Positions 20,477 through 62,186 of a stretch of DNA of 64,000 nt are shown one piece after another (within the stretch, counting starts at the first letter, position 1; each line of letters starts with the position of its first letter). The stretch comes from Saccharothrix australiensis (GTDB taxonomy: Bacteria > Actinomycetota > Actinomycetes > Mycobacteriales > Pseudonocardiaceae). The stretch spans positions 6,287,501 to 6,351,500 of the forward strand of contig NZ_RBXO01000001.1 of NCBI RefSeq assembly GCF_003634935.1. The letters run 5' to 3'. The notes beneath the pieces are model-generated. The model saw only the letters and a list, made by a program, of their open reading frames with translations, was not told the origin of the DNA and searched no databases. Both the position numbers and the translations under genes were made by a program.

Positions 20477-23383
20477 TCACTCGTTCTCCGCCTCCTCCTG
20501 TTCGTCCTCGTCCTCCATGAAGTCGATCTCCACGTCCTCGGTGTCCGACAAGGTGGGCAGCACGTATTCCTGCGCCAGTGCGGCGAGGTGGAGCGCCAAC
20601 GGCAGCCGCAAGGGGTCCGGGTAGTCAGGGGCATGGCGTTGTTGATGGATGGCGAACCCGAGGGCGACGGGGTCATCGCCCTCCGCGGGGTGACATCCCA
20701 GGACCGCGATCTCGACCAGCCCCGGGTTCCACCCGGGTACTCCCGTGTCGATGGTCGGTTTGCCTTCGTTCTTGCCCTTCAGCAACAACCTGGTGGTCAG
20801 CTTGTCGGCCGCGACAGCCGAGTCGCGGAAGGTCGCGGGCTTCGGCGTGGTGCTGTAGAACACCCGGTCGGACTCCGGGCCGGACTCGTCCGGATCGGTG
20901 ATCCAGAAGCCGGCGGCGAGACCGTTGACCCCGGACTCGGCCGGCGCCCACCACTGCGGAGTCTCCCGGTGTTGGGCCGTGCGCACCCGGACCAGTCGGA
21001 GCCCGGGGCGGAGATCGCCGGCGGGCGCGTGACCCGTCCGGAGGAGGTCTCGAACGACGACGGTGTCCTGCAACCACGGCCAGTCCGACCGACTGTTCTG
21101 GGCATGTGCCAACAACACCGTGGGACGTCCGAGCACCTCTTCCGAGAAGAGCACTTTCTGCAGGAAACGCGAAGCCTGCCCTCGACTCTCCTCCTCGCTC
21201 TTGCGGCGGATCCGCCACCACCCACGCGGCTTGTCCGGCATCACCTCCATGTCCTCGGCCTTGACCTCGGCCTGCTCGGTGAGCCGCAGCAGGAACCGGG
21301 GGTAGGGCACCCAACCCCCGACGCCACCGCCGGCCTCCTCATCCCACCCGAGCACCCGGTCGCCCTCCGGGCCGTCGTCGGCGCGGACGAGCACGGCGAC
21401 CGGAAACCGACGCGGAACCCCGGTCACGCTGTCGCGCCTGCGCTTGACCACACAGATCGCCAAGTACTGCAAACCGTCGGGCAGCCGGTCACCGAGGCTG
21501 TGCCGGGGCACGGTCCGGATGCCGAGTTGCCGGAAGCCGTCCTCCCAGGCAGACCTCGTCCGGTGTGCGAGGTTCTTGCGCGAGTCCCACCCCTTCACCT
21601 TCTTGGGCACGACCGCGAACTGGGTCAGGACCCCGGCGTCCGCGCCGCCGAGGCGCAGCGCGAACTTCGGGTCGTCCGCTGCCTGGGCGAGGTCCTCCCT
21701 GCGGTCGATCTCCACCAGGGCCAACGTCGGCACTGCGAGCCCCGCGCCGTCCGCCGTGAGAAGTTTCGCGAACCGGATCCGGCGATTCTTGATCGCATCG
21801 GCTAGATCGCGTGCCTTGTTGCGACTCTTGCGGTCCAGTCGGAACGATTCGACCAAGCCGTCGACCGCCTTGAGACAGCGCAGGCACACGACCAGTTCGG
21901 GAGTGCGCCACACGAGCAGCGCGGGACGGCCGGCGCCGGCGCTTTCGTACTCATCAGGTCGCAGTTCGCGCAGGGGGGAGGGGAGGCCGAGTCCCTGCTC
22001 CAGAGCGGAGACGCAGGCGCTCCGCCACTCGGTCGTCTGCCAGAACAGGCGCGCCTCGAAGACCGGGATGTCGTCTGGTGCGCCGCCCGCCGTCGCGAGC
22101 CTCGCCAGGGCGATCCGGCGTGCCGAGGCGAGCTGTTCCTGCACCGCTTGGCGCTCGCCGGCTTTCGGCTTCGCCCGGGAGTTGAGCGGGGCGTTGCTCG
22201 CGATGTTGCACCTGAGCAGGTTCGGCACGGAGCACCACTCCGGGCGCAGGGCCTGTTCGGCCCACTCGACGATCTCCGACCGCTGGTGGGCCATCAAGCC
22301 AACACCGACACCGTGTCCGCCCCGGCGCGTGCTGTGGACCACTCCGGCGCGTAAGCCGTCTTCGTTGAGCAGCCACTTCACCGGCGCATTGAGCAAGTCG
22401 TCGACGGCGGGGAACGGGCGACCGACGGACACCCGTTCGAACATTCCTCCGGCCTGGCCCTCTTGCCATCGGTGCCCCTGCAGGTCTCGGTCCCAAGTGA
22501 GCCGGGCGACGGCGACCCGGTCGCTCAACGGCGAGCCGGGCAGCCACGGCCGCCGCGACCGCAGGTAAACCGAGGTGTTCCGGCCGAACGCCAGATTCAT
22601 CCGGCCGACGCCGTCCTGCGCGGTGGTCGCCCAGCGACGGATCCCGGTGCACAGGTGGAGGCGTGGGACCGGGGAGAAGGGCACCGTGTGGACGAGCAGG
22701 TTGATCGTCACCGAGTACCACCACGTACGACCGTCCACCTCGTAGGGCAGCGGTTGCGACATCAACTCGGCACCCCGGTCGTCCGACCGCCTCGCCACGG
22801 CGTGGAACTTCAGCGTGCCCGCGCCGTAGTCGTACGGGGGCAGCGCCTGCACGCGGCGGGCGAAGTGGTCCGCGATCAGGGGGAACTGGCGGTCGCGCGG
22901 TGCGGCAGTTCCGCCGGCCGTGACGGGAAAGTCGAACAACCGGAGCACCGAAGGTTCCCACCGCGGCAGCTCGGCTTCCATGCGATCCCGCACGTCGAGC
23001 AACAACCTGCGGTACTCATCGTCTTGCGCGGACTGGGGGCGGAGGTCGGAGAGCCAGACGCCGAGCAGGCGGATCAATAGGTCGTCCGATAACGGTTGCC
23101 CGAGGTCGTCGGGCTGGTAGAGCCAGCGGTCGTCCGGTGACGGCTGATCAGCGCGCCGCCGCATCACCACGAGTTCCGGGAGAAGGCCCTGGAGGAACTC
23201 GTCGAGGCGCCTGGTCGGCGCGGTCCGGTAGGGCTCCGCCTCCGGGGAACGACCGAAATTGACCAGGTCGAGCACGCTCCGGTGAACGAGGTCGGGGAAC
23301 GGCAGCGCCAGGAAGGAGTGCTCCACCGACTCCACGCCCGACTCGGGTCGGTACGCGGCGCGGCGGATCTTCGAGCGAACCAC
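20477..23383 (-). CDS. pPIWI-RE module protein (prokaryotic PIWI with conserved R and E)
   Basis: 968-residue protein that I assign to the PIWI-RE family by architecture and motifs. A long N-terminal module (pPIWI_RE_X-like) is followed by a C-terminal RNase H/PIWI-like domain with RPTVLLAHAQNSRSDWPWLQ near residue 757, LVRVRTAQHRETPQWW near 797 (the conserved Arg strand) and NPGLVEIAVLG near 887 (the conserved Glu). The position usually discussed for the first RNase H acid reads LLAHAQN, so nuclease activity is doubtful. GTG at 23383 with AAAGGGG upstream is preferred; it begins 10 bp after the helicase stop. Last gene of the operon; the C-terminus is strongly acidic. PIWI-RE proteins are predicted guide-nucleic-acid binders. 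Confidence 0.85.
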   Translation of the reverse strand: MVRSKIRRAAYRPESGVESVEHSFLALPFPDLVHRSVLDLVNFGRSPEAEPYRTAPTRRLDEFLQGLLPELVVMRRRADQPSPDDRWLYQPDDLGQPLSDDLLIRLLGVWLSDLRPQSAQDDEYRRLLLDVRDRMEAELPRWEPSVLRLFDFPVTAGGTAAPRDRQFPLIADHFARRVQALPPYDYGAGTLKFHAVARRSDDRGAELMSQPLPYEVDGRTWWYSVTINLLVHTVPFSPVPRLHLCTGIRRWATTAQDGVGRMNLAFGRNTSVYLRSRRPWLPGSPLSDRVAVARLTWDRDLQGHRWQEGQAGGMFERVSVGRPFPAVDDLLNAPVKWLLNEDGLRAGVVHSTRRGGHGVGVGLMAHQRSEIVEWAEQALRPEWCSVPNLLRCNIASNAPLNSRAKPKAGERQAVQEQLASARRIALARLATAGGAPDDIPVFEARLFWQTTEWRSACVSALEQGLGLPSPLRELRPDEYESAGAGRPALLVWRTPELVVCLRCLKAVDGLVESFRLDRKSRNKARDLADAIKNRRIRFAKLLTADGAGLAVPTLALVEIDRREDLAQAADDPKFALRLGGADAGVLTQFAVVPKKVKGWDSRKNLAHRTRSAWEDGFRQLGIRTVPRHSLGDRLPDGLQYLAICVVKRRRDSVTGVPRRFPVAVLVRADDGPEGDRVLGWDEEAGGGVGGWVPYPRFLLRLTEQAEVKAEDMEVMPDKPRGWWRIRRKSEEESRGQASRFLQKVLFSEEVLGRPTVLLAHAQNSRSDWPWLQDTVVVRDLLRTGHAPAGDLRPGLRLVRVRTAQHRETPQWWAPAESGVNGLAAGFWITDPDESGPESDRVFYSTTPKPATFRDSAVAADKLTTRLLLKGKNEGKPTIDTGVPGWNPGLVEIAVLGCHPAEGDDPVALGFAIHQQRHAPDYPDPLRLPLALHLAALAQEYVLPTLSDTEDVEIDFMEDEDEQEEAENE

Positions 23384-23393
23384 GGAACCCCTT

Positions 23394-26300
23394 TCAGGAC
23401 CGGGTGGGCCGCTTTGGCGGTCCCACCTCTGGCATCTCGCACAGGGCGTTGTAGAGCGGCTGGTAGAGCCTTTGCACGAGGTCCGAGTCGGCGGGGTCGC
23501 CGGAGGGCCGTCCGGCCGAATCGGGGTCGAAGTACGGTGCGAGTACCTCACGCAGGTTCACCAGCAGGCTGGATGCGGCTGTGTCGCGCTGTCCCCGGAC
23601 CTTCGGGTCGGCATTGGGTGCCGCCGCAGCCGCGGCCCGCGGGGCGAACTTCGCGTCGACGAAGACCACGCGTGCGGGTACTCCTCCGCGAACGAGCCTG
23701 CCGATGACCTGCCACATCGTGACGAGGTGATCCCAGGCGAAGGACTGCTTGTCGTGCTTGCCGAGGCGGGTGTAGACGTACCTGCGATGCAGGACGCGGT
23801 TCCACTGGGTCCTGCCGAGCTTGCGGAACGCCTTCCCGGCGAGGTCGAGGTCGTCGTGCTTGGTGACGACGTCCTCGAAGGTCCCGTATTCCGTGTCCGC
23901 CCTGCCCAGGCCGCGCGTGTAGCGGGTGGCCCAGTCGTTGATCGCGAACACCGCCATCGCCAGGTCGTCCGGCCGGGGGTGCGGACGCGCCAGGAAGATC
24001 GCGACACCGAAAGCGGCGACCTTGCCGACGTTGAGGATGTTGTGACCGCGCTCGACGGCCATCAGCGGAGCGACGAGCACCTCGGCGTCCTCGTCCTTGG
24101 CGAAGTCGGCGACGTCGCCGCGGCGCACCCCCGTGGCGCTGCTGGTCGGCTGGGCGGCGAGTTCCTGGTCATCGGGCACCAGGGCCCGTACCCGGCCGTT
24201 CCACCGGTTGCCCGCCGCGTCGAGGAGGTTCGCCACCTCCAGCGCATCCTTGTAGCTCCCGACGAGCAGCAGAACCCGCCTGCGGTCCGAATCCGCGACA
24301 GCGGCCAACTCCTCGTCGAGGGGGCTGAACTTGCGGCCGTCAACGGGCCGGGCAAGCTGGTGGACCATCTTGCGCAGGATGTCAGCCTTCGTGCCGGGTG
24401 GCGCCCCCGACAGGCTCAGCGGACGGTTGCCGTCGTAGAGAAACCGCGTGGTGAAGACCGTCTCCTTGACCGCGTCGAGGAACTCCTCCTTGGGGCCGAG
24501 CACAGCCCGAACAGGCGCGATCACGTGCGACTTCGTCGAGGTGCCCGCCCAACTCGTCCCAGACATGAGCATCACGTGCGGGCCGTGGCGACCGTTGTGG
24601 TGGTCACGACCGATTTCGGGCAACGACAACAGCAGTTCGCGGCCGACGCCCTCGCACCGGAAGAAGCGGAGCGTGCCGGTGACCCGTCCCTGATGGTCCT
24701 CCTCCTGGTCCGGGAGGTACTGGAAGCCGAGCACGTTGCCCATCGGCGATTCGGGGATGATCGGCGCGTAGTCGTGCAGCGGGCGCCGAACCAGTTCGTT
24801 GTCCGTGCGGTCGAGCCGCAGCGCGGATTCGACCTGCGGCCAGAGCTGGGTGAGCTGGTCGAGCCGGTGGTGCAAGGCCGCGACCAACAGGGCGAACTCC
24901 AGTCTGACGACCATCCGTTCGTACCACTCCGGACTTCCGGGAACCTCCGCGGCATGGATGTCCGCGCCTTCCCGCGCCTCCGGGGTGGGGAGGCGCTCTC
25001 CGAGCGCGGGCGGCCCCTCGAGGAGGAGTTCGAGCGCTGTTCGCGTCCGCTGCCGCGCGCCCACCGAGTCGACCGTCTGCAAGAGGTCCTTGGTCGCGTC
25101 CGTCAGGGCATCGGTGATCTGCTCCGACCGAATTCCCCGATCGCCGAGCGGGTCGTCGCGGAAGTCGTCGAAGGCTTCCGCGACGTATTTCTTCCGTGCG
25201 GCCCAGGGTGTCGGCGCGGGCCCAGCGCCGGAATCCGACACCGCGTCCGCGTCCGATTCGTACCGGTCCCAATCCTCGACGGGAGCGGCGGGCGGATCAC
25301 TACCGGGAGCCTGTTCCGGGTACCAGTCGTGCAACAACTTCTCCTGGAGCGTCCAGGAGCTGAAGTACTCGATCCCCACCCACTCGCGCAGGTTCTCATC
25401 CTTGATCAACATCTCGTACAGTCGGTTGGTGGCGGTACCGACTACGGTGAGCGCCATCTCCCAGCGGGCGACGACGGGATCCGTAAGCTGCACGCGGCCC
25501 TCACGGGCCAGTTCACCGATCTTGTGCGTCAGGACCCGGTCCAACCAGGAATCCGGTCCTTTGACCACGAGGGTGGCCGACGGCGCGAAGGCGATGTCCA
25601 GGTTCGCCATGACGCGGTCCGCCTCGTCCACGACGACGATGTCGCTGCGCGCGCAGGCCAACTCCAGGTACCGCATCCGGTCGACGCTCAGGTGTCGGGG
25701 GACCCGGCTCTGGAGCAGACTGGCCGGATTGGCGACCCAGATCTTCGCGGTGACGAGGTGACGGGCTTCGAGGTGCCTCGGACAGCGGTACCACAGCGGG
25801 CACCCGCGCGCGGGTCCCAGGCCGTCGAGGGCACCCCGGTCGGGCTCCTCGTCGTCGGTGGCCTCCGGCGACGGGTCGTACAAGCCGGTGCAGGGCGCGT
25901 CGGTGAAGCGGAGCGGTGCAGTCGACGGGACGTCGCGCAAGGGGTCCGCCGGGCACGCCGTGCTCAGGCTGTCGAACCCGTCCTCGTCCGAATGCTGGAG
26001 GATGGACGGGCGGCCCCGGGCTGCCACGCGGCGGTGCAAGCGCTCGACGTGCAACTGCCGGGTCGCGGTGCCCAGCACGGGCGCCACCGCGGTGTCGTCG
26101 CCGTCCTCCGGGTCGTCGAGGATGTGGCGGAGCAGCCTGGTAAGCCGCAACTGCTCCGCGACGTCACCGACGACCAGGGTGATGCGCAGCCCGTTCTGCG
26201 CCGCCCACACCGCGAGCAGGACCATGAGGGTGCTCTTGCCGGCACCGACCATCCCCACCAGGTGAAGCAGGCGTTCCAGCCGCAGGGTGCCGGACTGCTT

Positions 26301-27014
26301 GAACTCGGACTCGCCCGCACCGCGCAGGTAGAGGTACAGGTTGTCGAACCGCTCCCGCCAGTTGTCCTCGTCCGGGATGCCGAGGCCATCGATGTGGTCG
26401 GCGACGTCCCCCAATTCGCACAGCGGGATGTCGAGGGGATCGGCGACGTTCGCCAAGCGGTGGGCGGCCCCGTGGCGTACGCGGTCGTCGTCCCGGACCC
26501 CGCATTCGTCCGGGATGGTCAGCGTGGTGATTCTCCGCTGCGCGATCAGCCGGTAGCGTCCCGGTTTCGCCAGGGTGATCGACTGCCGTGCGTGAGGCGG
26601 CAATGTCCGCAGTTCTTCCTCGTACAGCTTGTCCCGGTCAGCGGCGTGGGATGGCTTGAGGGGGGTGAACGACGTCAGTGCCGGGTCCAGGCCGTAACGG
26701 CGCAAGTGATCGGGCAGGTCGACATAACGTTGGAGCGCGTGCATCCAGTTGCGTCGTCGGCGTAGCGTCCACAGCCGATGCCGGGCACAGGTCACCATCC
26801 ACTCCGCAGCGGGGTTGTCGACGAGACCTCCGACGCGGGCGAAGTGATAGCCGCCCAGGAGCGTCCACACCGCTGTCGGTGGTTGAGTGCGGTCGAGTTC
26901 CTCCACCAGCCGCAAACCCAACTCGACCTTGGCGAGCAGCGTCAGGTCGTGCACACGGTCGGCCGGTAGGAACATCGACTCCAACCGCTTTGTCCAGCCG
27001 TTCAGATCACGCAC
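23394..27014 (-). CDS. DinG/XPD-like Fe-S helicase of the pPIWI-RE island
   Basis: 1206-residue superfamily 2 helicase. An N-terminal region of about 245 residues precedes Walker A GMVGAGKSTLM (K260). Four cysteines at 354, 375, 405 and 411 (CPLWYRCPRH) lie between Walker A and DEAD box VVDEADRVMANLD (463-466), exactly where XPD/DinG enzymes hold a 4Fe-4S cluster. The second RecA domain shows RVLLLVGSYKDALEVANLL and motif VI QVIGRLVRGG near the C-terminus. GTG at 27014 has GGAGGG upstream. It lies 28 bp after the REase gene and 10 bp before the pPIWI-RE gene. Expected role: 5'-3' unwinding of DNA or R-loops for the PIWI-RE complex. Confidence 0.88.
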   Translation of the reverse strand: MRDLNGWTKRLESMFLPADRVHDLTLLAKVELGLRLVEELDRTQPPTAVWTLLGGYHFARVGGLVDNPAAEWMVTCARHRLWTLRRRRNWMHALQRYVDLPDHLRRYGLDPALTSFTPLKPSHAADRDKLYEEELRTLPPHARQSITLAKPGRYRLIAQRRITTLTIPDECGVRDDDRVRHGAAHRLANVADPLDIPLCELGDVADHIDGLGIPDEDNWRERFDNLYLYLRGAGESEFKQSGTLRLERLLHLVGMVGAGKSTLMVLLAVWAAQNGLRITLVVGDVAEQLRLTRLLRHILDDPEDGDDTAVAPVLGTATRQLHVERLHRRVAARGRPSILQHSDEDGFDSLSTACPADPLRDVPSTAPLRFTDAPCTGLYDPSPEATDDEEPDRGALDGLGPARGCPLWYRCPRHLEARHLVTAKIWVANPASLLQSRVPRHLSVDRMRYLELACARSDIVVVDEADRVMANLDIAFAPSATLVVKGPDSWLDRVLTHKIGELAREGRVQLTDPVVARWEMALTVVGTATNRLYEMLIKDENLREWVGIEYFSSWTLQEKLLHDWYPEQAPGSDPPAAPVEDWDRYESDADAVSDSGAGPAPTPWAARKKYVAEAFDDFRDDPLGDRGIRSEQITDALTDATKDLLQTVDSVGARQRTRTALELLLEGPPALGERLPTPEAREGADIHAAEVPGSPEWYERMVVRLEFALLVAALHHRLDQLTQLWPQVESALRLDRTDNELVRRPLHDYAPIIPESPMGNVLGFQYLPDQEEDHQGRVTGTLRFFRCEGVGRELLLSLPEIGRDHHNGRHGPHVMLMSGTSWAGTSTKSHVIAPVRAVLGPKEEFLDAVKETVFTTRFLYDGNRPLSLSGAPPGTKADILRKMVHQLARPVDGRKFSPLDEELAAVADSDRRRVLLLVGSYKDALEVANLLDAAGNRWNGRVRALVPDDQELAAQPTSSATGVRRGDVADFAKDEDAEVLVAPLMAVERGHNILNVGKVAAFGVAIFLARPHPRPDDLAMAVFAINDWATRYTRGLGRADTEYGTFEDVVTKHDDLDLAGKAFRKLGRTQWNRVLHRRYVYTRLGKHDKQSFAWDHLVTMWQVIGRLVRGGVPARVVFVDAKFAPRAAAAAAPNADPKVRGQRDTAASSLLVNLREVLAPYFDPDSAGRPSGDPADSDLVQRLYQPLYNALCEMPEVGPPKRPTRS

Positions 27015-27042
27015 CCGAACCCTCCACCACCGTGTTCGAAAA

Positions 27043-28152
27043 TCAGAGCTGTTCCAGCCGCAGGGAGGCTTTCGAGACCACCGCGTCCAGCGGCAGTACG
27101 CTCGGCCGCCACATTCCCGGCGCCAAGTGGTCCAGGCACGAGGTCGCGTAGTCGGGGTCCACGTCGAACCGAGCCCGCGGCACCGCCCACAGCAGCTCGT
27201 CGGCGGGCCCGTGCCCCTCCGCGATCACGGCCTGGCCGGCGAGCAGTGCCGGGTTGACCCAGTCCTTGACGTCGATCAGCCAGCTACGCCCGTCGGGGAA
27301 CGAGACGCCCAGGTCGGCCAGCCCGAACTTCGGCCACCACTCGACCACCAGACCCAGATCGGACAGCTCTGCGGCCAACTTGACGCCGAAGCGCCCCGGG
27401 CCGGTGACGAACTGGCGAAGCGGTCGTGCGAGGTGGTGGAGTCGACCCACGTCGGCCGCGTCGAAGATGGGACCGGGTTGGGGCTTCCCGGCGAACTCAC
27501 ACAGGGCCTGTTCGCACCACCAGTCCCCTCCATCAAGGGGAAGCAGAAGGGTTCTGCACCGCGCACACGGCCGGTACTCACCTCTTCGCCGGTAGCGGTC
27601 GGGCACCGGCTCGTAGAGATCCTTCAGTGAGTCGATCACCAAGCTGAGGGTGTTGTCCGTCTCGAGCTCGAAATACTCCGCCTCGGTGATCACCGGTTTG
27701 CCGAGCAGCACACCCCGGAACGCTTGGTAGGCGGCGCGCGAGGACAGGGAGGCGCACGTGTCGCGCACGGAGTCGAGCACGCGTCCGACAGAGCCGACCG
27801 GGCCACCTCCCGGCACCTGCGACACCAACTCCAGGCATAGCTGCGTGGGGGTGAAGGAGCGGTCGTCGAGCAGCGAGGTGTTCCACACCGGGGTGCGGGG
27901 CAGCTCCAGCGGCCAGTCCTCCAGCCGCTCACCCGCGCACCAGGCGACGAGCTGCATGAGAGACGTCGGTGGACGCGCGCGACGCTGGAGGCACCTGAGC
28001 ACCAAACGGTCGAGCGCGCGCTGCGCACCGGCCGGGTAGGGCAGTCGGAAGCCCTCCAGCTCGACCAAGCCGTCCAGACCGACGATCGCCGCGGCGATCG
28101 AGGCGACCAGCTCCACGTCGGGCTGGTCGACCAGCCGTTGCTGATCAGACAC
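27043..28152 (-). CDS. pPIWI-RE-associated REase (PD-(D/E)XK) with zinc ribbon
   Basis: 369 residues. The first 180 or so form a helical region I take to be the pPIWI_RE_Y-type domain. Then comes a zinc ribbon, C196-x2-C199 and C213-x4-C218. The C-terminal third carries a restriction-endonuclease core: ADLGVSFPDG with Asp280 and SWLIDVKDW with Asp294-x-Lys296, the expected metal-binding and catalytic residues. ATG at 28152 overlaps the stop of the Cas4-like gene by 8 bp. The order REase, DinG helicase, pPIWI-RE protein is the described three-gene PIWI-RE island. It is probably the DNA-cutting subunit. Confidence 0.83.
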   Translation of the reverse strand: MSDQQRLVDQPDVELVASIAAAIVGLDGLVELEGFRLPYPAGAQRALDRLVLRCLQRRARPPTSLMQLVAWCAGERLEDWPLELPRTPVWNTSLLDDRSFTPTQLCLELVSQVPGGGPVGSVGRVLDSVRDTCASLSSRAAYQAFRGVLLGKPVITEAEYFELETDNTLSLVIDSLKDLYEPVPDRYRRRGEYRPCARCRTLLLPLDGGDWWCEQALCEFAGKPQPGPIFDAADVGRLHHLARPLRQFVTGPGRFGVKLAAELSDLGLVVEWWPKFGLADLGVSFPDGRSWLIDVKDWVNPALLAGQAVIAEGHGPADELLWAVPRARFDVDPDYATSCLDHLAPGMWRPSVLPLDAVVSKASLRLEQL

Positions 28153-29830
28153 CAGTGGCCTCGACTTCCGCTCGCTTCACGTGCGAGGAGCCGGGTGCGC
28201 ACCATGCGAGCGCCGCGCAGTGGTCGCAAGCCCTACCCGGGCGAGCGGGGAAGTCGGCGTCGGCGAGCCAGTGGTCAAGCAGCGGCCGAATCACCTCACG
28301 GGCCTCCTCCACCACCTCAGGACGACCGGGATCCACCTCCTCCAGCCCGCAATCCCCGTCGTTGAGCAGTTCGAGTTCGATCCTCGGCATCTTGGTCGTG
28401 TCACCGAGCACTCCGCCGGCGACCATCAGGACAGCCAGCGCCACCTGGGGGTACTGGCTGAGCAGCGGCTGTCCTGTCCACAGGTGGGAGCGGGTGGTCT
28501 TCGTCTCACGCCAGACCGGCGCACCCGAGCGCTCGTACACCAGGTCCGGTGTGGCGACGAAGACGAGGTCCAGCTCCGGGTCGTGCAGGGACAAGGTCCG
28601 CTGCACCCACACCCGGTCGCCTGTTCCCGGCTTGCCGATCGGGCAGAACAGCGTGTGCTGCCGGAGCATGCGAGCGGCGACCCCGGCCTCCTCGCCGTCG
28701 ATCGTGAAGCGGCCGTCCCTCCACTCCTCCAGGGAGCCCGGCACCTCATCCATCTGACACCGCCGAGCGGGGCGCGCGGCGTGCCTCCGGTTGAGCCAGT
28801 CATCGACCACGCGACCACGCACAACGGCGGGGTCCTCGACCGCACCCGGCTGCCGCAGTTTCAACTGCCGGGTGAGGTGGTAGCTCGCCGGGCAGTCCAC
28901 GTGCGCGCGAAGATCGCTCGCGGACACGCTGCGGCGCATCCACTTCGACGGTGCGATGCCCGGCTGCAACCGTGCACGGGGCACCGCGTCGCACTCCGCG
29001 ATGACCCCGCATCCGACACAGTCCCGACCGGGTGTGCGGCCGACACCCGACAGCGCTGTGGCCAGCACGGGCGCGGAGGTCTCACGGAATCCGGCCAATG
29101 CCTGCTCACGGCTGAGTTCGACCCACTCGAAGCCGCCGGAGCCGCATCCGTACTCCACCACGCGAACCCGGTGCGGCAACTCGTACGCGCCAGGAGGCAG
29201 TCCGCGTAGAGGTTCATGTCGTCGGCCGTACGCCGGATGACAGGGCTCACCGTGGGCCACCGCATAGGCGGCCAAGGCAACCTCAGCCGCACCTCGGTCC
29301 CGTTTGACCTCGCCGAAGGAAAGAAGCCAGATCTCCCTCAGTTGGCCGTCGGCGGAGGCGTAGCGTCTGCCCCAACAGGTCTGTTCGTAGTAGTCGACAC
29401 CCCGGTGGTCGACGTCGCGCAGCGAGGTGCGTACCACCCACGGGTACCCGACGGGAGCGGTGACCCAAGCGTCGTCGCCCACCGCGTATTGGCGCCGCGC
29501 GCCCAGGTAGCGCCCTACGGCCTCGACCGTCCACGCGATCAAGCCGTCGTGGGCGCGTCCACGCGAGCCGAGGGCCTCCCGAGCGCCCACCACGTCGGCG
29601 ACGACGTCGTCGACCGACCGCTCCTGATCACTGAATTCCATGAGATCCAGCACGTCCATGAAGAGTCCGAGCGTGAAGTCCTCGACGGAAGGCGGCTTCG
29701 GTCGACGCCGGGAAACGCCTGCATGCCCTGGACGTGCTTTCACCGAAGCCGCGACAACACAGTTTCCCTCACCGAAGCGTGCGATCGGCAACCCTGTTCG
29801 GATAAATCCTCGCGCCGACACACCAGCCAA
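28145..29830 (-). CDS. Two-module Cas4/RecB-like Fe-S nuclease
   Basis: Up to 561 residues; the true start is uncertain because the first 50 codons have poor codon bias (candidates TTG 29830, GTG 29743, ATG 29659). The C-terminal half is a PD-(D/E)XK exonuclease of the RecB/Cas4/AddB type: SASDLRAHVDCPASYHL (C313), TPDLVYER with D429, RETKTTRSH (E442-x-K444) and CDHCAALAWC (C535, C538, C544), together an intact iron-staple pattern. The N-terminal half shows the same plan: WLLSFGEVKRDR (E174-x-K176) followed by CVGCGVIAEC (C271, C274, C280), possibly a degenerate duplicate. First gene of the four-gene operon, coupled to the REase gene by an 8-bp overlap. Likely processes DNA ends. Confidence 0.75.
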   Translation of the reverse strand: MAGVSARGFIRTGLPIARFGEGNCVVAASVKARPGHAGVSRRRPKPPSVEDFTLGLFMDVLDLMEFSDQERSVDDVVADVVGAREALGSRGRAHDGLIAWTVEAVGRYLGARRQYAVGDDAWVTAPVGYPWVVRTSLRDVDHRGVDYYEQTCWGRRYASADGQLREIWLLSFGEVKRDRGAAEVALAAYAVAHGEPCHPAYGRRHEPLRGLPPGAYELPHRVRVVEYGCGSGGFEWVELSREQALAGFRETSAPVLATALSGVGRTPGRDCVGCGVIAECDAVPRARLQPGIAPSKWMRRSVSASDLRAHVDCPASYHLTRQLKLRQPGAVEDPAVVRGRVVDDWLNRRHAARPARRCQMDEVPGSLEEWRDGRFTIDGEEAGVAARMLRQHTLFCPIGKPGTGDRVWVQRTLSLHDPELDLVFVATPDLVYERSGAPVWRETKTTRSHLWTGQPLLSQYPQVALAVLMVAGGVLGDTTKMPRIELELLNDGDCGLEEVDPGRPEVVEEAREVIRPLLDHWLADADFPARPGRACDHCAALAWCAPGSSHVKRAEVEATGV

Positions 29831-29995: not shown

Positions 29996-31183
29996 GTGAT
30001 CGGCGAAGTCGTCAAAGGGCGCTACGAGGTGCTCAGCACGCTCGGCAGCGGCGGGATGGGTGCCGTTTTTGTCGCGCTCGACCTGCACAAGGGGCGAAAG
30101 AAGGTCGTGCTCAAGACGCCATTGGTCTCTTTGGGCACCGAAAGGCAGCCGACGACCGACCTTCAACGACACCTGAACCGGTTCGCCCGCGAAGCTGCGT
30201 TTCTTTGCCGCATCCGGCATCCCAATGTCGCGCGAGGCTACGACCACGGCCACCACGGAAAAGTGCCGTACCTGGTCATGGACTGGGTCAACGGGTACGG
30301 ATTGGACAGATTCCTGGAAGACAACCCTCCCTTGCCGACGGAAGCCGTGGCAGCCGTGGTCGCCCAGATCGCCGAAGCACTTGCCGCCACCCATGCCGAA
30401 GATGTCGTCCACCGCGACTTGAAGCCCGGAAATGTGATGCTCTCGCACGCCGGCGTGGTTTACCTCATAGATTTCGGCCTCGCGAAACCGATGGACCCCG
30501 ACGTCACGAAGTTGACCGGTACGGAACACTCTCCGGGGACCGAGGAGTACATGACGCCGGAACAGTTCGGAAGCGGTGACGATATCTGCCCTCAGACGGA
30601 TCTGTACGCCTTGGGATTCATGACATACATCATGCTGACCGGAGTTCCACCATTTGCAGGGTCTAAAACCGGCATCAGCTGGAAAGAACACCACCTCCAC
30701 ACGCGGCCGGCACGGCCGGATCGCAAGGGTGACCCGATCCCGGACGCTTTGGCGGATCTCGTCCTGCACCTGCTGGAGAAACGGGTCTCCGACCGTCCTG
30801 CCGACGCCAGAGAGGTCGTCGACCGGCTCGAGCCGTTCCTTCCCGAACCCGGTTCCGCGGCCCCCTTCCCCTCGTTGAAACCCGACCCCACACGGGTGTA
30901 CCGCCACCCTGGCGAGACAAGACCGCCTGACGCGCCGCCGGTCGCACCCGATCCAGTCCGGTCAGCGGTGACCGTGCGCAGGAGCGGGCCCGCACTGTCG
31001 CGACGCGAAATCCCGGCTCTGGTGGAGGAGGCGTTGGCCGCGGCGTCGAAGGACCCGACCGGGGGGCGTCTTCGACTCGAACGGCTGCTGAAACAGGCAT
31101 CGGGGAAGTTCGGGGCCTTCGACGTAGCGGTCGAACCGATCCGTCAGGCACTGGGAGATCTGGACAACCGGCGCGTGGACTAG
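29996..31183 (+). CDS. Eukaryotic-like serine/threonine protein kinase, soluble
   Basis: Hanks-type kinase of 395 residues: GSGGMGAVFVA P-loop at residues 17-22, VVLKTP lysine near 40, VVHRDLKPGNVML catalytic loop near 138, LIDFGLAKP near 157 and GTEEYMTPEQF activation-segment end. After the kinase domain (to about 280) come a Pro-rich linker and a helical tail. No transmembrane helix is seen, unlike PknB-type kinases, so it works in the cytosol. GTG at 29996 has GGAAGG nine bases upstream. It is divergent from the Cas4-like gene across 165 bp and is the last gene before MBL remnant 3. It may regulate or act with the PIWI-RE operon (inference). Confidence 0.93.
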   Translation: MIGEVVKGRYEVLSTLGSGGMGAVFVALDLHKGRKKVVLKTPLVSLGTERQPTTDLQRHLNRFAREAAFLCRIRHPNVARGYDHGHHGKVPYLVMDWVNGYGLDRFLEDNPPLPTEAVAAVVAQIAEALAATHAEDVVHRDLKPGNVMLSHAGVVYLIDFGLAKPMDPDVTKLTGTEHSPGTEEYMTPEQFGSGDDICPQTDLYALGFMTYIMLTGVPPFAGSKTGISWKEHHLHTRPARPDRKGDPIPDALADLVLHLLEKRVSDRPADAREVVDRLEPFLPEPGSAAPFPSLKPDPTRVYRHPGETRPPDAPPVAPDPVRSAVTVRRSGPALSRREIPALVEEALAAASKDPTGGRLRLERLLKQASGKFGAFDVAVEPIRQALGDLDNRRVD

Positions 31184-54152: not shown

Positions 54153-57005
54153 GTGGCCCCCTCCTCCCGCCTCGGCGGCAGGTGGTCGCTCCCCGCGCTG
54201 GTCGTGCTGGTCGCCCTGCTGGGCGCCGTCGTGGTCTGGACGCGGCAGGGCGACGACCCGCCCCCGGTGAGCACCCGCGACGCGGTGATCGACGTGCCGG
54301 AGAGCCCCGGCAGCGACCGGGCGATCCAGCTCGACACCACCCTCCACCTGCCCGAACGCACACCCGCGCCGGCCATCCTGCTGCCGCACGGCTTCGGCGG
54401 CAGCAAGGAGGGCGTGGCCGCCCAGGCGACCGAGCTGGCGCGGCGCGGGTTCGTCGTGCTGACCTACTCCGCCCGCGGCTTCGGCCGCAGCACCGGCCGG
54501 ATCGCGCTGAACTCCCTCGACCACGAGGTCCGCGACGCGCAGAAGCTGCTGGACTGGCTCGCGACCCGCGAGGAGGTGCGCACCGACGCGGCGGGCGACC
54601 CGAGGGTCGGCGTCACCGGCGCGTCGTACGGCGGCGCGCTGGCGCTGTCGCTGGCCGGCGTGGACCGGCGGGTCGACACGATCGTCCCGGTGATGACGTT
54701 CAACGACCTGGGCCAGGCGCTGCTGCCGAACGCCGGCCGCGCCGACCGGGTGGACGCGACGTCGGTCGCGCCCGGCGCGTTCGGCGACGACGGCGTGTTC
54801 AAGCGGTCTTGGGCGGGCCTCCTGTTCTCCGCCGGGCTGTCCGGCGGCGACGTGGCGGGCCCCGGCCAGGAGGCGCAGGAGCCGGGCCAGGACGGCCGCG
54901 GGCAGGCCCCGAGCGACACCGCGGCCGTGCCCCCGGCGCAGCCCGGCCCGACGGCACCGCGCCCCGGCGCCGCCGACGGCGCGTGCGGCCGGTTCCAGGC
55001 CGACGTCTGCGCGGCGTACACCGACGTGGCGACCACGGGGCGGGCCGACCCGCGCACCCTGGAGGTGCTGCGGCGCTCCTCGCCCGCGGCGGTGACCGGC
55101 CGCATCACCCAGCCGACGATGATCGTGCAGGGCGAGCAGGACACGCTGTTCGGCCTGGACCAGGGTGACGCCAACGCGCGCCAGATCGCCGCGAACGGCG
55201 CGAAGGTCAAGGTCGTCTGGTACGCGGGCGGCCACGACGGCGGCTCGCCCGGCCCCGAGCTGCGCGGGCGCATCGCCGACTGGATGGCCTTCCACCTCGA
55301 CGGCAAGGGCGCCGACCCCGGCACGGGCTTCGAGTACACCGTCGTGGGCGCGTTCCGCAGCAGCGGCACGCCGTCGCTGCGCGACGTGGTCGCGCCGCAC
55401 TACCCCGGCCTGCCGGGCGCGGACCCGGTCGAGCGCCGGGGCGTGCCGCTGGCCGGCGGCGAGCAGGTGGTGGTCAACCCGCCGGGCGGCAACCCGGCGG
55501 CGGTGAGCAGCCTGCCCGGCCTCGGCTCGGCGCTGTCGCGGTCCAGCGCGGTCTCGTCGCGGCTGGCGGTCGACCTGCCGGGCCAGGCGGCGGTGTTCAC
55601 CTCCGAGCCGCTCACCTCGCAGCTGCTGCTGACCGGCGCGTCGACCGTGCGGCTGCGGGTGGCGGCGGTGCCCGGCCGCCCCGTGCCGGACGAGGGCGCG
55701 GTGCTGTTCGCGAAGCTGTACGACGTCGACGCGAGCGGGGTGCGCACGCTGCCCGGCTCGGCCGTCGCGCCGATCCGCGTCACCGGCCTGCCCGCCGACG
55801 GCACGCCCGTCGACGTGCACGTGACGCTGCCCGGCGCGGTGCGGCCGGTGGAGAGCGACCACCGGCTCCAGCTCGTGGTCGCCACCACGGACCAGGCGTA
55901 CGCGAACGCGACGACGCCCGCCGCCTACCGCGTCTCGCTGGCGACGCCGGAACTCGCGGCGCCGGTCGTGCCGGGCGTGAACGCGACCAGCGACGTGCCG
56001 ACCGGTGCGCTGTGGGGCATCGCGATCGTGCTGGTCGCGTGCGCGATCGCGGCGGTGGTGGCGTGGTTCCGGCGGCGGCTGGCCGCCGACGTCGACCCCG
56101 CGCTGACCGGCGTGCCGCTGGTGATCTCCGGGCTGACCAAGTCCTACCCCGGCGGGCTGACGGCGGTGCGGGACCTGTCGTTCCGGGTCGAGCACGGCCA
56201 GGTGCTCGGCCTGCTCGGGCCCAACGGCGCGGGCAAGACGACCACCCTGCGGATGCTGATGGGCCTGATCACGCCCTCCGAGGGCGAGATCAGGGTGTTC
56301 GGGCACCGGGTGAGCCCCGGCGCGCCCGTGCTGTCGCGCGTCGGGTCGTTCGTGGAGGGCTCCGGTTTCCTGCCCCACCTGTCCGGCCTGGCCAACCTGC
56401 GGCTGTACTGGGCGGCGACCGGCCGCCCGGTCGAGCAGGCGCACTTCGACGAGGCGCTGGAGATCGCGGGCCTCGGTGACGCGGTGCACCGCCGCGTCCG
56501 CACCTACAGCCAGGGCATGCGGCAGCGGCTGGCCATCGCGCAGGCGATGCTGGGCCTGCCGGACCTGCTGGTGCTCGACGAGCCGGCCAACGGGCTCGAC
56601 CCGCCCCAGATCCACCAGATGCGCGAGGTCCTGCGGCGCTACGCGGCGGCCGGGCGCACGGTGCTGGTGTCCTCGCACCTGCTCGCCGAGGTCGAGCAGA
56701 CGTGCAGCCACGTCGTGGTGATGCACAAGGGCACCCTGGTCGCGGCCGGTCCGGTCGAGGAGATCGCGACGGGCGGCGGCGAGGCCAGCTTCCGGGTCGA
56801 CCGGCCCGAGGAGGCGGCCGAGGTGCTGCGCGGCCTGGAGGGCGTGCGGGGCGTGTCGGTGGACGGCGAGCACGTGCACGCCGGCCTCAACGGCACCCCG
56901 CGCGCGACGGCCCTGCGGGCGTTGGTGCGGGCGGGGGTGGCGGTCGACCAGGCCGGCCCGCGCCGCAAGCTGGAGGACGCGTTCCTGGAACTGGTGGGCG
57001 AGTGA
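54153..57005 (+). CDS. Extracytoplasmic alpha/beta hydrolase fused to ABC ATPase
   Basis: 950 residues with an unusual order. TM helix (residues about 14-30), then a CocE/NonD-like alpha/beta hydrolase facing outward: LLPHGFGGSKEG (oxyanion), VTGASYGGALALS (Ser158 nucleophile), IVQGEQDTLFGL (Asp) and AGGHDGGSPG (His). A beta-rich domain follows (to about 600), a second TM helix (about 620-640), then a cytoplasmic ABC ATPase: GPNGAGKTT (near 690), YSQGMRQRLAIAQAML (signature), LVLDEPANGLD, SSHLLAEVEQ. GTG at 54153. Stop overlaps the permease ATG by one base. Confidence 0.85.
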   Translation: MAPSSRLGGRWSLPALVVLVALLGAVVVWTRQGDDPPPVSTRDAVIDVPESPGSDRAIQLDTTLHLPERTPAPAILLPHGFGGSKEGVAAQATELARRGFVVLTYSARGFGRSTGRIALNSLDHEVRDAQKLLDWLATREEVRTDAAGDPRVGVTGASYGGALALSLAGVDRRVDTIVPVMTFNDLGQALLPNAGRADRVDATSVAPGAFGDDGVFKRSWAGLLFSAGLSGGDVAGPGQEAQEPGQDGRGQAPSDTAAVPPAQPGPTAPRPGAADGACGRFQADVCAAYTDVATTGRADPRTLEVLRRSSPAAVTGRITQPTMIVQGEQDTLFGLDQGDANARQIAANGAKVKVVWYAGGHDGGSPGPELRGRIADWMAFHLDGKGADPGTGFEYTVVGAFRSSGTPSLRDVVAPHYPGLPGADPVERRGVPLAGGEQVVVNPPGGNPAAVSSLPGLGSALSRSSAVSSRLAVDLPGQAAVFTSEPLTSQLLLTGASTVRLRVAAVPGRPVPDEGAVLFAKLYDVDASGVRTLPGSAVAPIRVTGLPADGTPVDVHVTLPGAVRPVESDHRLQLVVATTDQAYANATTPAAYRVSLATPELAAPVVPGVNATSDVPTGALWGIAIVLVACAIAAVVAWFRRRLAADVDPALTGVPLVISGLTKSYPGGLTAVRDLSFRVEHGQVLGLLGPNGAGKTTTLRMLMGLITPSEGEIRVFGHRVSPGAPVLSRVGSFVEGSGFLPHLSGLANLRLYWAATGRPVEQAHFDEALEIAGLGDAVHRRVRTYSQGMRQRLAIAQAMLGLPDLLVLDEPANGLDPPQIHQMREVLRRYAAAGRTVLVSSHLLAEVEQTCSHVVVMHKGTLVAAGPVEEIATGGGEASFRVDRPEEAAEVLRGLEGVRGVSVDGEHVHAGLNGTPRATALRALVRAGVAVDQAGPRRKLEDAFLELVGE

Positions 57006-57934
57006 TGGCGGACGAGCACGGCGTGCACACCGACCCGACGGCGATCGCCGACCTGGCCGACGCGGCCGAGCACGAGCACCCCGGTGTCGCGCCGGACGGG
57101 TCGAGGGTCGGCTACCGGGCGGGGCGGACGCTGCCGATCCGGGTGGAGCTGGCGCGCCAGCTGCGCCGCAGGCGGACGCAGCTGGTGCTGGGCTTCCTGG
57201 TGCTGCTGCCGTTCATCCTGGTGGTGGCGTTCGAGCTGGGGCAGGCGTCGCCGAACCGGCGCTCGGGCGGGTTCGTGGACCTCGCGACGGCCAGTGGCGT
57301 GAACTTCGTGGTGCTCACGCTGTTCGTGAGCGGCAGCTTCCTGCTGCCGATGATCGTGGCGCTGTTCTTCGGCGACACGATCGCGTCCGAGGCGTCCTGG
57401 TCGAGCCTGAAGTACCTGCTGGCGGCGCCCGTGCCGCGGCACCGGCTGCTGCGCCGCAAGGCGCTGGCGTCCGGGCTGCTGTCGGTGGCCGCGCTGGTCC
57501 TGCTGCCCGCCGTGGCGCTGGCGGTCGGCGTCGCCTGGTACGGGGCGGGCGAGGCGGTCAGCCCGACGGGCGAGGCGACGTCGTTCGGCGCGGGCGTGTC
57601 CGGGGTGGCGCTGGCGGTCTGCTACCTCTGCGTCCACCTGTTCTGGGTGGCGGGGTTGGCGCTGTTCCTGTCGGTGTCGACGGACGCGCCGCTGGGCGCG
57701 GTCGGCGGCGCGGTGCTGGCGTCGATCCTGTCGCAGATCCTGGACCAGATCACGGCGTTGGAGGGACTGCGGGACTACCTGCCGACGCACTACGCGCTGG
57801 CGTGGGCGGACCTGCTGTCGACCGAGGTGGACTGGTCGCAATTGGCGAAGGGCGCGTTCTCGGCGCTGGCCTACGGCGCGTTCTTCACGCTGCTGGCGGC
57901 CCGGAAGTTCGCGCGCAAGGACATCACGAGCTGA
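57005..57934 (+). CDS. ABC transporter permease
   Basis: 309 residues, six or so helices (LVLGFLVLLPFILVVAFELG, FVVLTLFVSGSFLLPMIVAL and others). FFGDTIASEASWSSLKYLL and VPRHRLLRRKALASGLLSV are typical of ABC-2 permeases. The ATG at 57005 overlaps the preceding stop (TGATG), so it pairs with the hydrolase-ATPase fusion in one exporter. The N-terminus is acidic and cytoplasmic. Confidence 0.88.
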   Translation: MADEHGVHTDPTAIADLADAAEHEHPGVAPDGSRVGYRAGRTLPIRVELARQLRRRRTQLVLGFLVLLPFILVVAFELGQASPNRRSGGFVDLATASGVNFVVLTLFVSGSFLLPMIVALFFGDTIASEASWSSLKYLLAAPVPRHRLLRRKALASGLLSVAALVLLPAVALAVGVAWYGAGEAVSPTGEATSFGAGVSGVALAVCYLCVHLFWVAGLALFLSVSTDAPLGAVGGAVLASILSQILDQITALEGLRDYLPTHYALAWADLLSTEVDWSQLAKGAFSALAYGAFFTLLAARKFARKDITS

Positions 57935-60797: not shown

Positions 60798-62186
60798 TCA
60801 GCAGTCGCACCCGCAGCAGTCGCAGCAGCCGCCGTCGCCGCCGCCCCGGCCGCTGCCGCCGCCGCAGTCGCAGCCCGAACCGCAGTCGCAGGGGTTGTGC
60901 CGCCACTTGCCGCTCCACGGGCCGGGGAACGGGTCGCGGCAGCAGTACTGGCACGTGCCGCACTGGTAGAGCACGGCCAGGCAGCCGAGCAGCGCGCCCC
61001 GCGGGCGGGGCGGGTGGACCAGCGCCGGCCAGCACCACAGGCCGCCGCCGGGGCCGGGCGGCTCGCCACGCCGGTCCCACTCGGTCGGGCGCGGCGGCGG
61101 TCCGCCGCCGTCGTCACCGCCGTCGTCACCGCCGTGGCCCGCGGCGGCGTGCGGCGGCACCGGGCCGGGTGGTGGCACGCTGCCGTGCCGGTCACCGCCG
61201 TGCGGGGCCTGGTGCGGCGGGTACGCGGCGGGCGCGGGATGCCAACCCGGCGGCGGCGTCCCCTGCGGGCCGTGCCCGTGCGGGCCGTGCCCGTGCGGGC
61301 CGTGCCCGTGCGGGCCGTGCGTGTGCGGGCCGTGCGTGTGCGGGCCGCCGAACGCCCGCCGGATCGACTCGCGCACCTCGTGCACGAGCAGCGCGTGCAC
61401 CAGCCGCCCGTCGGTGAACTCCACGTCCTTCAGGGCCAGTTCGATGCCCATCGCGGCGTCCTCGCACAGCCGCCGCGCCTCCGCCAACGACGTGCCGGTG
61501 GCCTCCAGCGGGTTCCACGCGCCCGCCGCGCGGTCCTCCGCCAGGTCCTCCACGGCGTCGACCAGGTGCGCCAGGCGCCCGAACAGCCGCCCGACCTCGC
61601 GCAACGCGTCGGCGTTGCCCGGTCGCCCGGCCAGCAGGGCGGTCCGCGCCACCGCCTCGCCGGCGGCGGTCTCGGTCGGCTCGGTCACCAGCAGCACCGA
61701 GCCGCCCGGCCCGGCCGCCGCCTCCACCTCCGCCTGCCGCTCCACCGCCGCGACCAGCACGCCGGTGTCGAAGCCCAGGTCGGACCCGGTGGTCGCGGCC
61801 TGCGCGGCCCACCGCCGCGCCACCCGCCTGCCCAGGCCCCGGACGGGCACCCGCGCGAAGGCGCCGTCCCGGTCCGCCACGTGGTCGCCGACCTTCGCCG
61901 ACGCCAGCACCAGCGACACCGTCGCGGCCAGCCGCGCGCCCGCGCCCACGGCCACGTCGGCCGACCTCATGCCGCGCAGCGCGCACGGGCCCGCCGAGCG
62001 CCGCGAACGGACCGTCTGGGCCTCGACGAGGGCGGACACGACCAGCCCGTCGTAGTTGGTGACCACGCGCGCCAGGTGGCCGTGGTCGTCGCGCAGCGCC
62101 AGGCACAGCCCGCACAGGTGCGCCAGCCACGATTCGCGCAGGTCCGCGCCCAGTCGGTGGCGGCACGGCCGGATGATCCCGAACAT
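60798..62186 (-). CDS. DUF5685 family protein with His-rich and Cys-rich tail
   Basis: 462 residues. FGIIRPCRHRLGADLRESW, HLCGLCLALRDDHGHLARV and NYDGLVVSALVEAQ mark the family N-terminus. A His-rich tract of HGPHGHGPHGHGP type follows (near 285), and the tail holds CQYCCRDPFPG, CDCGSGCDCGGG and CCDCCGCDC. The His tract corresponds to a 15-bp DNA repeat. A metal-binding role is likely for the tail. ATG at 62186. Confidence 0.85.
   Translation of the reverse strand: MFGIIRPCRHRLGADLRESWLAHLCGLCLALRDDHGHLARVVTNYDGLVVSALVEAQTVRSRRSAGPCALRGMRSADVAVGAGARLAATVSLVLASAKVGDHVADRDGAFARVPVRGLGRRVARRWAAQAATTGSDLGFDTGVLVAAVERQAEVEAAAGPGGSVLLVTEPTETAAGEAVARTALLAGRPGNADALREVGRLFGRLAHLVDAVEDLAEDRAAGAWNPLEATGTSLAEARRLCEDAAMGIELALKDVEFTDGRLVHALLVHEVRESIRRAFGGPHTHGPHTHGPHGHGPHGHGPHGHGPQGTPPPGWHPAPAAYPPHQAPHGGDRHGSVPPPGPVPPHAAAGHGGDDGGDDGGGPPPRPTEWDRRGEPPGPGGGLWCWPALVHPPRPRGALLGCLAVLYQCGTCQYCCRDPFPGPWSGKWRHNPCDCGSGCDCGGGSGRGGGDGGCCDCCGCDC
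61265..61339. repeat. 15-bp tandem repeat encoding the His-rich tract
   Basis: Five units: GCGGGCCGTGCCCGT three times (61265, 61280, 61295) and GCGGGCCGTGCGTGT twice (61310, 61325). Encodes the GPHGH / GPHTH repeats of the DUF5685 protein. Confidence 0.9.

Follow-up and report, generated by a model that had tools for sequence, protein, structure and literature searches.

A gene in the analysed stretch of Saccharothrix australiensis DNA (64,000 nucleotides of contig NZ_RBXO01000001.1, hereafter the window) encodes a single 950-residue chain in which a putative membrane-tethered serine hydrolase is joined to an ATP-binding cassette (ABC) ATPase. The gene for an ABC-2 permease follows directly, one base being common to its ATG and the TGA of the fusion (Table 1). 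We propose that the two genes specify a type V ABC exporter fitted at its exit with an extracytoplasmic esterase that would process the exported substrate; we give this reading a probability of about 0.45. The complex would consist of two fusion chains and two permeases, each ATPase chain bearing a serine esterase- or lipase-like hydrolase on the extracytoplasmic side. Permease and ATPase would move a substrate across the membrane; a lipid or a small molecule bearing an acyl or other ester group is the likeliest candidate. The hydrolase, with a membrane helix at either end, would meet this substrate at the exit and cut an ester (less likely an amide) bond, and the cleavage would release or mature the product. 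Sequence gives the fusion itself, a conserved triad, two hydrophobic segments and a permease partner; the topology, the number of subunits, the direction of export, the ester substrate and the coupling are what we infer. The preliminary description of this stretch, which suggested a possible link between hydrolysis outside and export by the same machine, is partly supported.

The fusion is found in many genomes. Whole genomes were scanned with the full-length protein as query (E ≤ 1e-70); the named loci discussed here are the best 80 of 202 encoding relatives in a scan of the genome collection, nearly all of them Pseudonocardiaceae by title. Both parts lie in one stop-free frame at each of the 80. 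With the fused matches found phylum-wide, these unbroken relatives rule out, to near certainty, a sequencing or assembly artefact or a chance fusion, and the single polypeptide of hydrolase and ABC ATPase claimed in the preliminary description of this stretch is confirmed. The taxonomic samples overlap, the window genome being in each and the order genomes recurring in the class and phylum samples. In the family, 76 of 80 sampled genomes matched (the gene is cut by contig ends in G310 and G355), and the four negatives belong to two genera, g236 and g238. The order sample holds the fusion with both parts in 62 of 81 genomes. At class level 23 of 118 genomes matched, G161 by its ATPase alone, which leaves both parts in 22/118; at phylum level there were 10 matches in 119 genomes, two of them by ATPase alone (G238 and G274), hence both parts in 8/119. 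Among the class matches are two genomes, G104 and G139, each on a single contig (1.34 and 1.35 Mb). The pairing of esterase and ATPase is old and widespread in actinobacteria. It is present in Saccharothrix, Amycolatopsis and Lentzea, which are antibiotic producers, and on a plasmid of Tsukamurella tyrosinosolvens, where the pair is annotated as "alpha/beta fold hydrolase" and "ABC transporter permease" and the frame of the former holds both parts. Two copies each occur in G353, G354, G330 and G095 (75% and 62% identity in G354). Paralogues thus exist, possibly with different substrates. G161 has a free S15 hydrolase on a different contig (L168).

Three Pfam families match the fusion protein above their gathering cut-offs, Peptidase_S15 (residues 58-189; 67.2 bits versus 23), PepX_C (476-589; 27.6 versus 22.5) and ABC_tran (673-813; 101.4 bits). 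Across the fused proteins S15 was matched in 45/45 and PepX_C in 42/45 at E ≤ 0.001. In the AlphaFold2 model (45 sequences, mean predicted local distance difference test score, pLDDT, 83.8; predicted template modelling score, pTM, 0.64) the hydrolase and a mostly-beta C-terminal domain lie between two helices, residues 12-31 and 617-643, and the ATPase comes after. Mean hydropathy over 19 residues reaches 2.38 in the first helix and 2.72 in the second, against maxima of 1.35 elsewhere in the hydrolase and 1.12 in the ATPase. Across the rows compared, a hydrophobic segment always stands ahead of the ATPase (20/20 rows of one set and 7/7 of another, 19-residue mean ≥ 1.82), mostly with an Arg-rich end; the N-terminal segment is clear in 18/20 and 7/7. 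The membrane anchor and the second helix of the preliminary description are thus both predicted, and they support, without proving, a hydrolase outside and an ATPase inside. In the model, 8 residues separate the first helix from the first strand of the hydrolase and 11 separate the last strand from the second helix, spacers so short that the hydrolase would be held near the membrane. The N-termini of L131, L132 and L134 resemble cleavable or lipoprotein signals, judged by the known motifs of both. The fused relative at L134 has LGACSS at its N-terminus, which is lipoprotein-signal-like, hinting that some members are lipid-anchored there.

The hydrolase appears to be a working enzyme. Each member of its putative triad, Ser158, Asp330 and His361, comes just past a predicted strand (152-157, 322-327 and 352-357, respectively), a placement seen in alpha/beta hydrolases. 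All three residues are invariant in the window and the 80 named loci (81/81 rows), in the 20 distant fused loci and in the seven others, which argues that catalysis is under selection and bears out the intact Ser/Asp/His set noted earlier. The nucleophile elbow G156-x-S158-Y-G-G is likewise invariant in 81/81, residue 157 being Ala (45) or Gly (36); G-x-S-Y-x-G is the elbow motif of S15 and CocE/NonD hydrolases. Two cysteines, Cys278 and Cys286, are kept in 81/81 rows, in 18/20 distant loci (they are absent from L128 and L130) and in 7/7 others, as would be expected of an exported domain. A low-confidence stretch of the model (residues ~231-280, blocks of pLDDT 36-69) coincides with a Pro/Ala/Gln-rich insert, which is 0-79 residues long depending on the relative.

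When the model was re-aligned to solved chains, the best match was the lipase PaL (PDB 8yzn, 8yzo), with Z 32.2, a root-mean-square deviation (rmsd) of 2.8, 452 aligned residues and 24% identity. CocE followed (Z 27.5, rmsd 3.1, 463 residues), then the X-Pro dipeptidyl aminopeptidase 1lns (Z 26.1, rmsd 3.4, 462 aligned) and the alpha-amino acid ester hydrolase 1mpx (Z 26.0, rmsd 3.0, 450 aligned). The hydrolase profile placed MHETase first among PDB sequences (E 3.6e-28) and PaL second (7e-28, with the hydrolase and the C-terminal domain both aligned); another PDB sequence comparison gave MHETase, an "alpha/beta hydrolase" and the lipase as best matches. A link to phage was considered and rejected, PHROGs yielding two generic esterase families. 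No NCBIfam model found for the hydrolase domain attains its cut-off, TIGR00976 (CocE_NonD) being narrowly missed by the isolated domain (64.6 versus 66.3 bits). The earlier label "CocE-like" therefore holds for the fold, but PaL is nearer. From its name, we take the PaL of 8yzn to be the Pseudomonas alcaligenes enzyme. A PaL from P. alcaligenes is reported to hydrolyse L-menthyl propionate (PMC9902596). Nothing in the comparisons favours a peptidase over an esterase: the Pfam S15 label covers peptidases, and the nearest solved fold to the model is a lipase.

The ATPase has a full set of motifs, with Walker A GPNGAGKTT, the signature YSQGM, Walker B with Asp809/Glu810, and His842. Walker A is invariant in 81/81 rows, and Ser786, Asp809, Glu810 and His842 in 20/20 rows of a smaller set. 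Many solved chains match this half, among them 1vpl (Z 29.0, rmsd 2.3, 233 aligned), ABCA4 7lkz (Z 28.7, rmsd 6.6, 329 aligned) and NosF 7o0y_B (Z 27.1, rmsd 3.4, 292 aligned). The permease matches ABC2_membrane_4 (36 bits versus 27) and ABC2_membrane_2 over their cut-offs, as the preliminary description anticipated. A relative of it lies downstream of the fusion in 80/80 named and 20/20 diverse loci, with its start codon no more than 60 bases from the fusion end in 60 of the 80. Its model (44 sequences, mean pLDDT 82.9, pTM 0.79) aligns with NosY (Z 18.0, rmsd 3.3, 227 aligned) and ABCG2 (Z 17.1, rmsd 6.0, 263 aligned); the Foldseek E-values are weak, the best being 9e-4.

NosY heads the structural matches of the permease, and by Foldseek E-value NosF precedes every other ABC chain matched to the ATPase. 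Both speak for mechanotransmission of the kind attributed to FtsEX and NosDFY: the ATP cycle would move the permease and the second helix and so gate an outer hydrolase acting on the cell envelope, with no essential export. The second helix ties the hydrolase straight to the ATPase and not to the permease, as such gating would have it. We nevertheless regard this mechanism as unlikely. By Z the ATPase scores higher with 1vpl and ABCA4 than with NosF, and by sequence with ABCA3; the fold of the permease is shared by exporters such as ABCG2 and PmtCD; ATPase-permease pairs that have no hydrolase exist (see below); and small esters, not cell wall, are the known substrates of S15/PaL-like enzymes. 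In favour of the mechanism there is an actinobacterial precedent, the extracellular hydrolase RipC regulated by FtsEX (PMC10694151).

Comparison with known systems places each part in familiar company. Like the fusion, PaL has a hydrolase and a C-terminal domain, and the two superpose; its crystal chain of 505 residues matches residues 36-606 only and is without the second membrane helix and the ATPase. The group of CocE/NonD and X-Pro dipeptidyl-peptidases has the same domain order (S15, then PepX_C) and fold, but the fusion falls short of the TIGR00976 cut-off, is tethered and is joined to an ATPase. It also has HGFGG, presumably at the place where CocE uses Tyr44 for the oxyanion hole. The ATPase and permease folds are those of the NosDFY/ABCG/DrrAB-type (type V) transporters; to our knowledge, the ATPase chains of that type carry no extracytoplasmic enzyme. 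Peptidase-containing ABC transporters (PCATs, with C39 domains) are exporters with a covalently attached processing enzyme, as in the fusion. There the enzyme, a cysteine peptidase, is cytoplasmic and its chain also holds the transmembrane domain; the fusion has instead a serine hydrolase, presumably extracytoplasmic, borne by the ATPase chain, and no C39 family is among its Pfam matches at E ≤ 0.01. FtsEX and RipC, unlike the parts of the fusion, are separate polypeptides, with a MacB-like permease and a peptidoglycan hydrolase. They do resemble it as an ABC machine linked to an extracellular hydrolase (PMC10694151). The structural search was run with hydrolase and ATPase as a single chain, and neither PCAT nor FtsEX is among the matches listed for it, which excludes nothing. 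We found no report of such a fusion on one ATPase chain in the open-access literature searched; subscription papers were outside that scope, so absence from print is not established. Each part is of a known kind, and what may be new is the combination on one ATPase chain.

The surroundings of the gene were compared at two depths. In the window a TerC gene and then an S9 peptidase gene lie upstream and divergent, and uvrB and a DUF5685 gene lie downstream and converging. TerC neighbours the fusion in 80/80 named loci and the S9 peptidase in 73/80. At 20 diverse loci (stretches of 9-19 kb; open reading frames (ORFs) of at least 120 residues, clustered and not annotated), no neighbour beyond fusion and permease recurs in more than three, barring shadow ORFs in other frames over those genes. 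Fusion and permease alone are common to all 20, and the unit therefore looks self-contained. These data bear on a role in self-protection, in which the hydrolase would destroy, and the transporter expel, toxic esters or antibiotics at the membrane, the fusion serving to co-locate both activities. The ATPase has a family-level likeness to drug and lantibiotic exporters (best NCBIfam models drrA, 172.6 bits, and lantibiotic protection, 167.3), and the hydrolase fold takes in 1mpx; alpha-amino acid ester hydrolases act on beta-lactam side chains. But both NCBIfam scores are far under their cut-offs (312.45 and 309.75), and for the whole fusion chain none of the best 25 of 199 models is at its cut-off. 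Presence in 76/80 family genomes and in the two small genomes suggests that the role is general and not tied to a niche, and no resistance or biosynthesis neighbour is common to the 20 diverse loci, where neighbours were clustered, not annotated. We consider self-protection improbable.

The history of the fusion was examined with trees of the two domains. In the hydrolase tree (unrooted; without L151 and L172, which were too short) one branch separates 48 fused rows from 17 free-standing relatives (support 100/99; 200/200 bootstrap trees), the fused L150 and L143 lying on long branches. This topology fits one fused group. The free relatives are ~29-36% identical to the window hydrolase, and in 18 of 20 hydrolase loci no matching ATPase or permease stands beside them within the stretches seen, some of which are cut by contig ends; the other two are a frame-shifted fused locus (L170) and a fused one (L174). 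In the ATPase tree, three ATPase-permease pairs (L177-L179) nest within the clade next to a single fused group (94/79, under the star threshold). Two changes are needed to account for the fused rows, which a single branch sets apart in only 3% of bootstrap trees; the tree would allow a single fusion followed by a loss, or else two fusions. Divergence of the parts is correlated across 43 genomes (Spearman 0.83 for hydrolase-ATPase, 0.87 for hydrolase-permease and 0.77 for ATPase-permease) and across 17 diverse genomes (0.48, 0.66 and 0.43, respectively).

Several of these observations weigh against an exporter with a built-in esterase. The pairs at L177-L179 have no hydrolase nearby, and therefore coupling to a hydrolase is not obligatory in the clade and the transporter core can stand without one; the L178 stretch starts 1 kb before the ATPase, and a separate hydrolase gene could be cut off there. 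Part of the co-divergence comes from shared genome ancestry. The permease starts 77-696 bases past the fusion at 20 of the 80 loci (18 of them Lentzea or Lentzea-like), and the overlap is thus not universal. L132 and L134 have weak N-terminal segments (1.57 and 1.21), no clearer than the maxima within their hydrolases (1.52 and 1.22), perhaps owing to cleavable signals. No conserved neighbour at the 20 diverse loci points to a substrate, and NosDFY, to which the top structural match of the permease belongs, is presumably not a clear small-molecule exporter. The hydrolase-less relatives nonetheless speak mildly for export followed by hydrolysis over an enzyme gated by the ATPase. They also touch on the idea that the chain is cut after synthesis, or that its halves act independently, the fusion serving stoichiometry or placement. 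S15 relatives occur free, as do ATPase-permease pairs, and the linker from the second helix to the ATPase is short and poorly conserved, as such co-tethering would allow; the join is, on the other side, kept with both halves throughout the phylum, and we hold mere co-tethering to be rather improbable.

Table 1. Positions of the fusion gene, its parts and other features named in the text (window coordinates; rows marked L give positions in the stretch of that locus)
Feature	Positions	Strand	Basis or remark
Fusion gene, membrane-tethered S15/CocE-like hydrolase and ABC ATPase, 950 residues	54153..57005	+	GTG start, single ORF
Predicted membrane helix 1 (signal anchor), residues 12-31, Arg6 and Arg10 before it	54186..54245	+	Model, hydropathy
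Presumed extracytoplasmic hydrolase and PepX_C-like domain, residues 38-608	54264..55976	+	Pfam, alignment, model, fold match
Predicted membrane helix 2, residues 617-643, Arg-rich end	56001..56081	+	Hydropathy, model
ABC ATPase domain, residues 654-950	56112..57002	+	Pfam, alignment, fold match
ABC-2 permease, 309 residues, type V exporter fold	57005..57934	+	Pfam, model, structural match
Hydrolase-less ATPase-permease pair, same clade, L177	6922-8636		
Hydrolase-less ATPase-permease pair, same clade, L178	1035-2749		
Hydrolase-less ATPase-permease pair, same clade, L179	138-1900		
Fused relative, L134	7457-9970	-	LGACSS at N-terminus
Four adjoining pPIWI-RE genes	20477-29830	-	
Ser/Thr protein kinase gene	29996-31183	+	PADLOC
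DUF5685 protein gene	60798-62186	-	

Other genes of the window deserve a brief mention. Four adjoining genes match pPIWI-RE components, PprPIWI (E 1e-281), PprDinG (6e-252), PprRE (3e-75) and PprPDDEXK (2e-131), in a stretch with a G+C content of 0.67-0.69, under that of most of the window. Next to them, on the other strand, lies a Ser/Thr protein kinase gene whose best PADLOC match, PD-T4-6 (4e-73), may reflect the kinase fold alone. The fusion itself was considered as a defence system and rejected: its four PADLOC matches all lie within the ATPase region, and neither the hydrolase part nor the permease has any. The DUF5685 protein has a C-terminal His-Gly repeat (GPHTHGPHTHGPHGHG) and a very Cys-rich tail, a composition suggestive of metal binding.

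Taken broadly, and tentatively, the fusion and its permease may represent a phylum-wide ABC machine, fused perhaps once, whose ATPase chain spans the membrane and holds an esterase outside, acting either as an exporter that finishes its product or as an ATP-gated esterase. Where ABC exporters are known to carry a catalytic domain on the inside, PCATs are the example. With an enzyme that sits outside and belongs to the ATPase chain, transport and processing would be coupled in another manner, ATP hydrolysis inside and ester hydrolysis outside being two ends of one polypeptide. The T. tyrosinosolvens annotation names the fusion after its hydrolase alone, and the transporter half is easily overlooked in this way. 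If this broad reading is correct, a unit kept in two genomes of ~1.35 Mb would serve an undescribed core envelope or metabolite pathway of actinobacteria.

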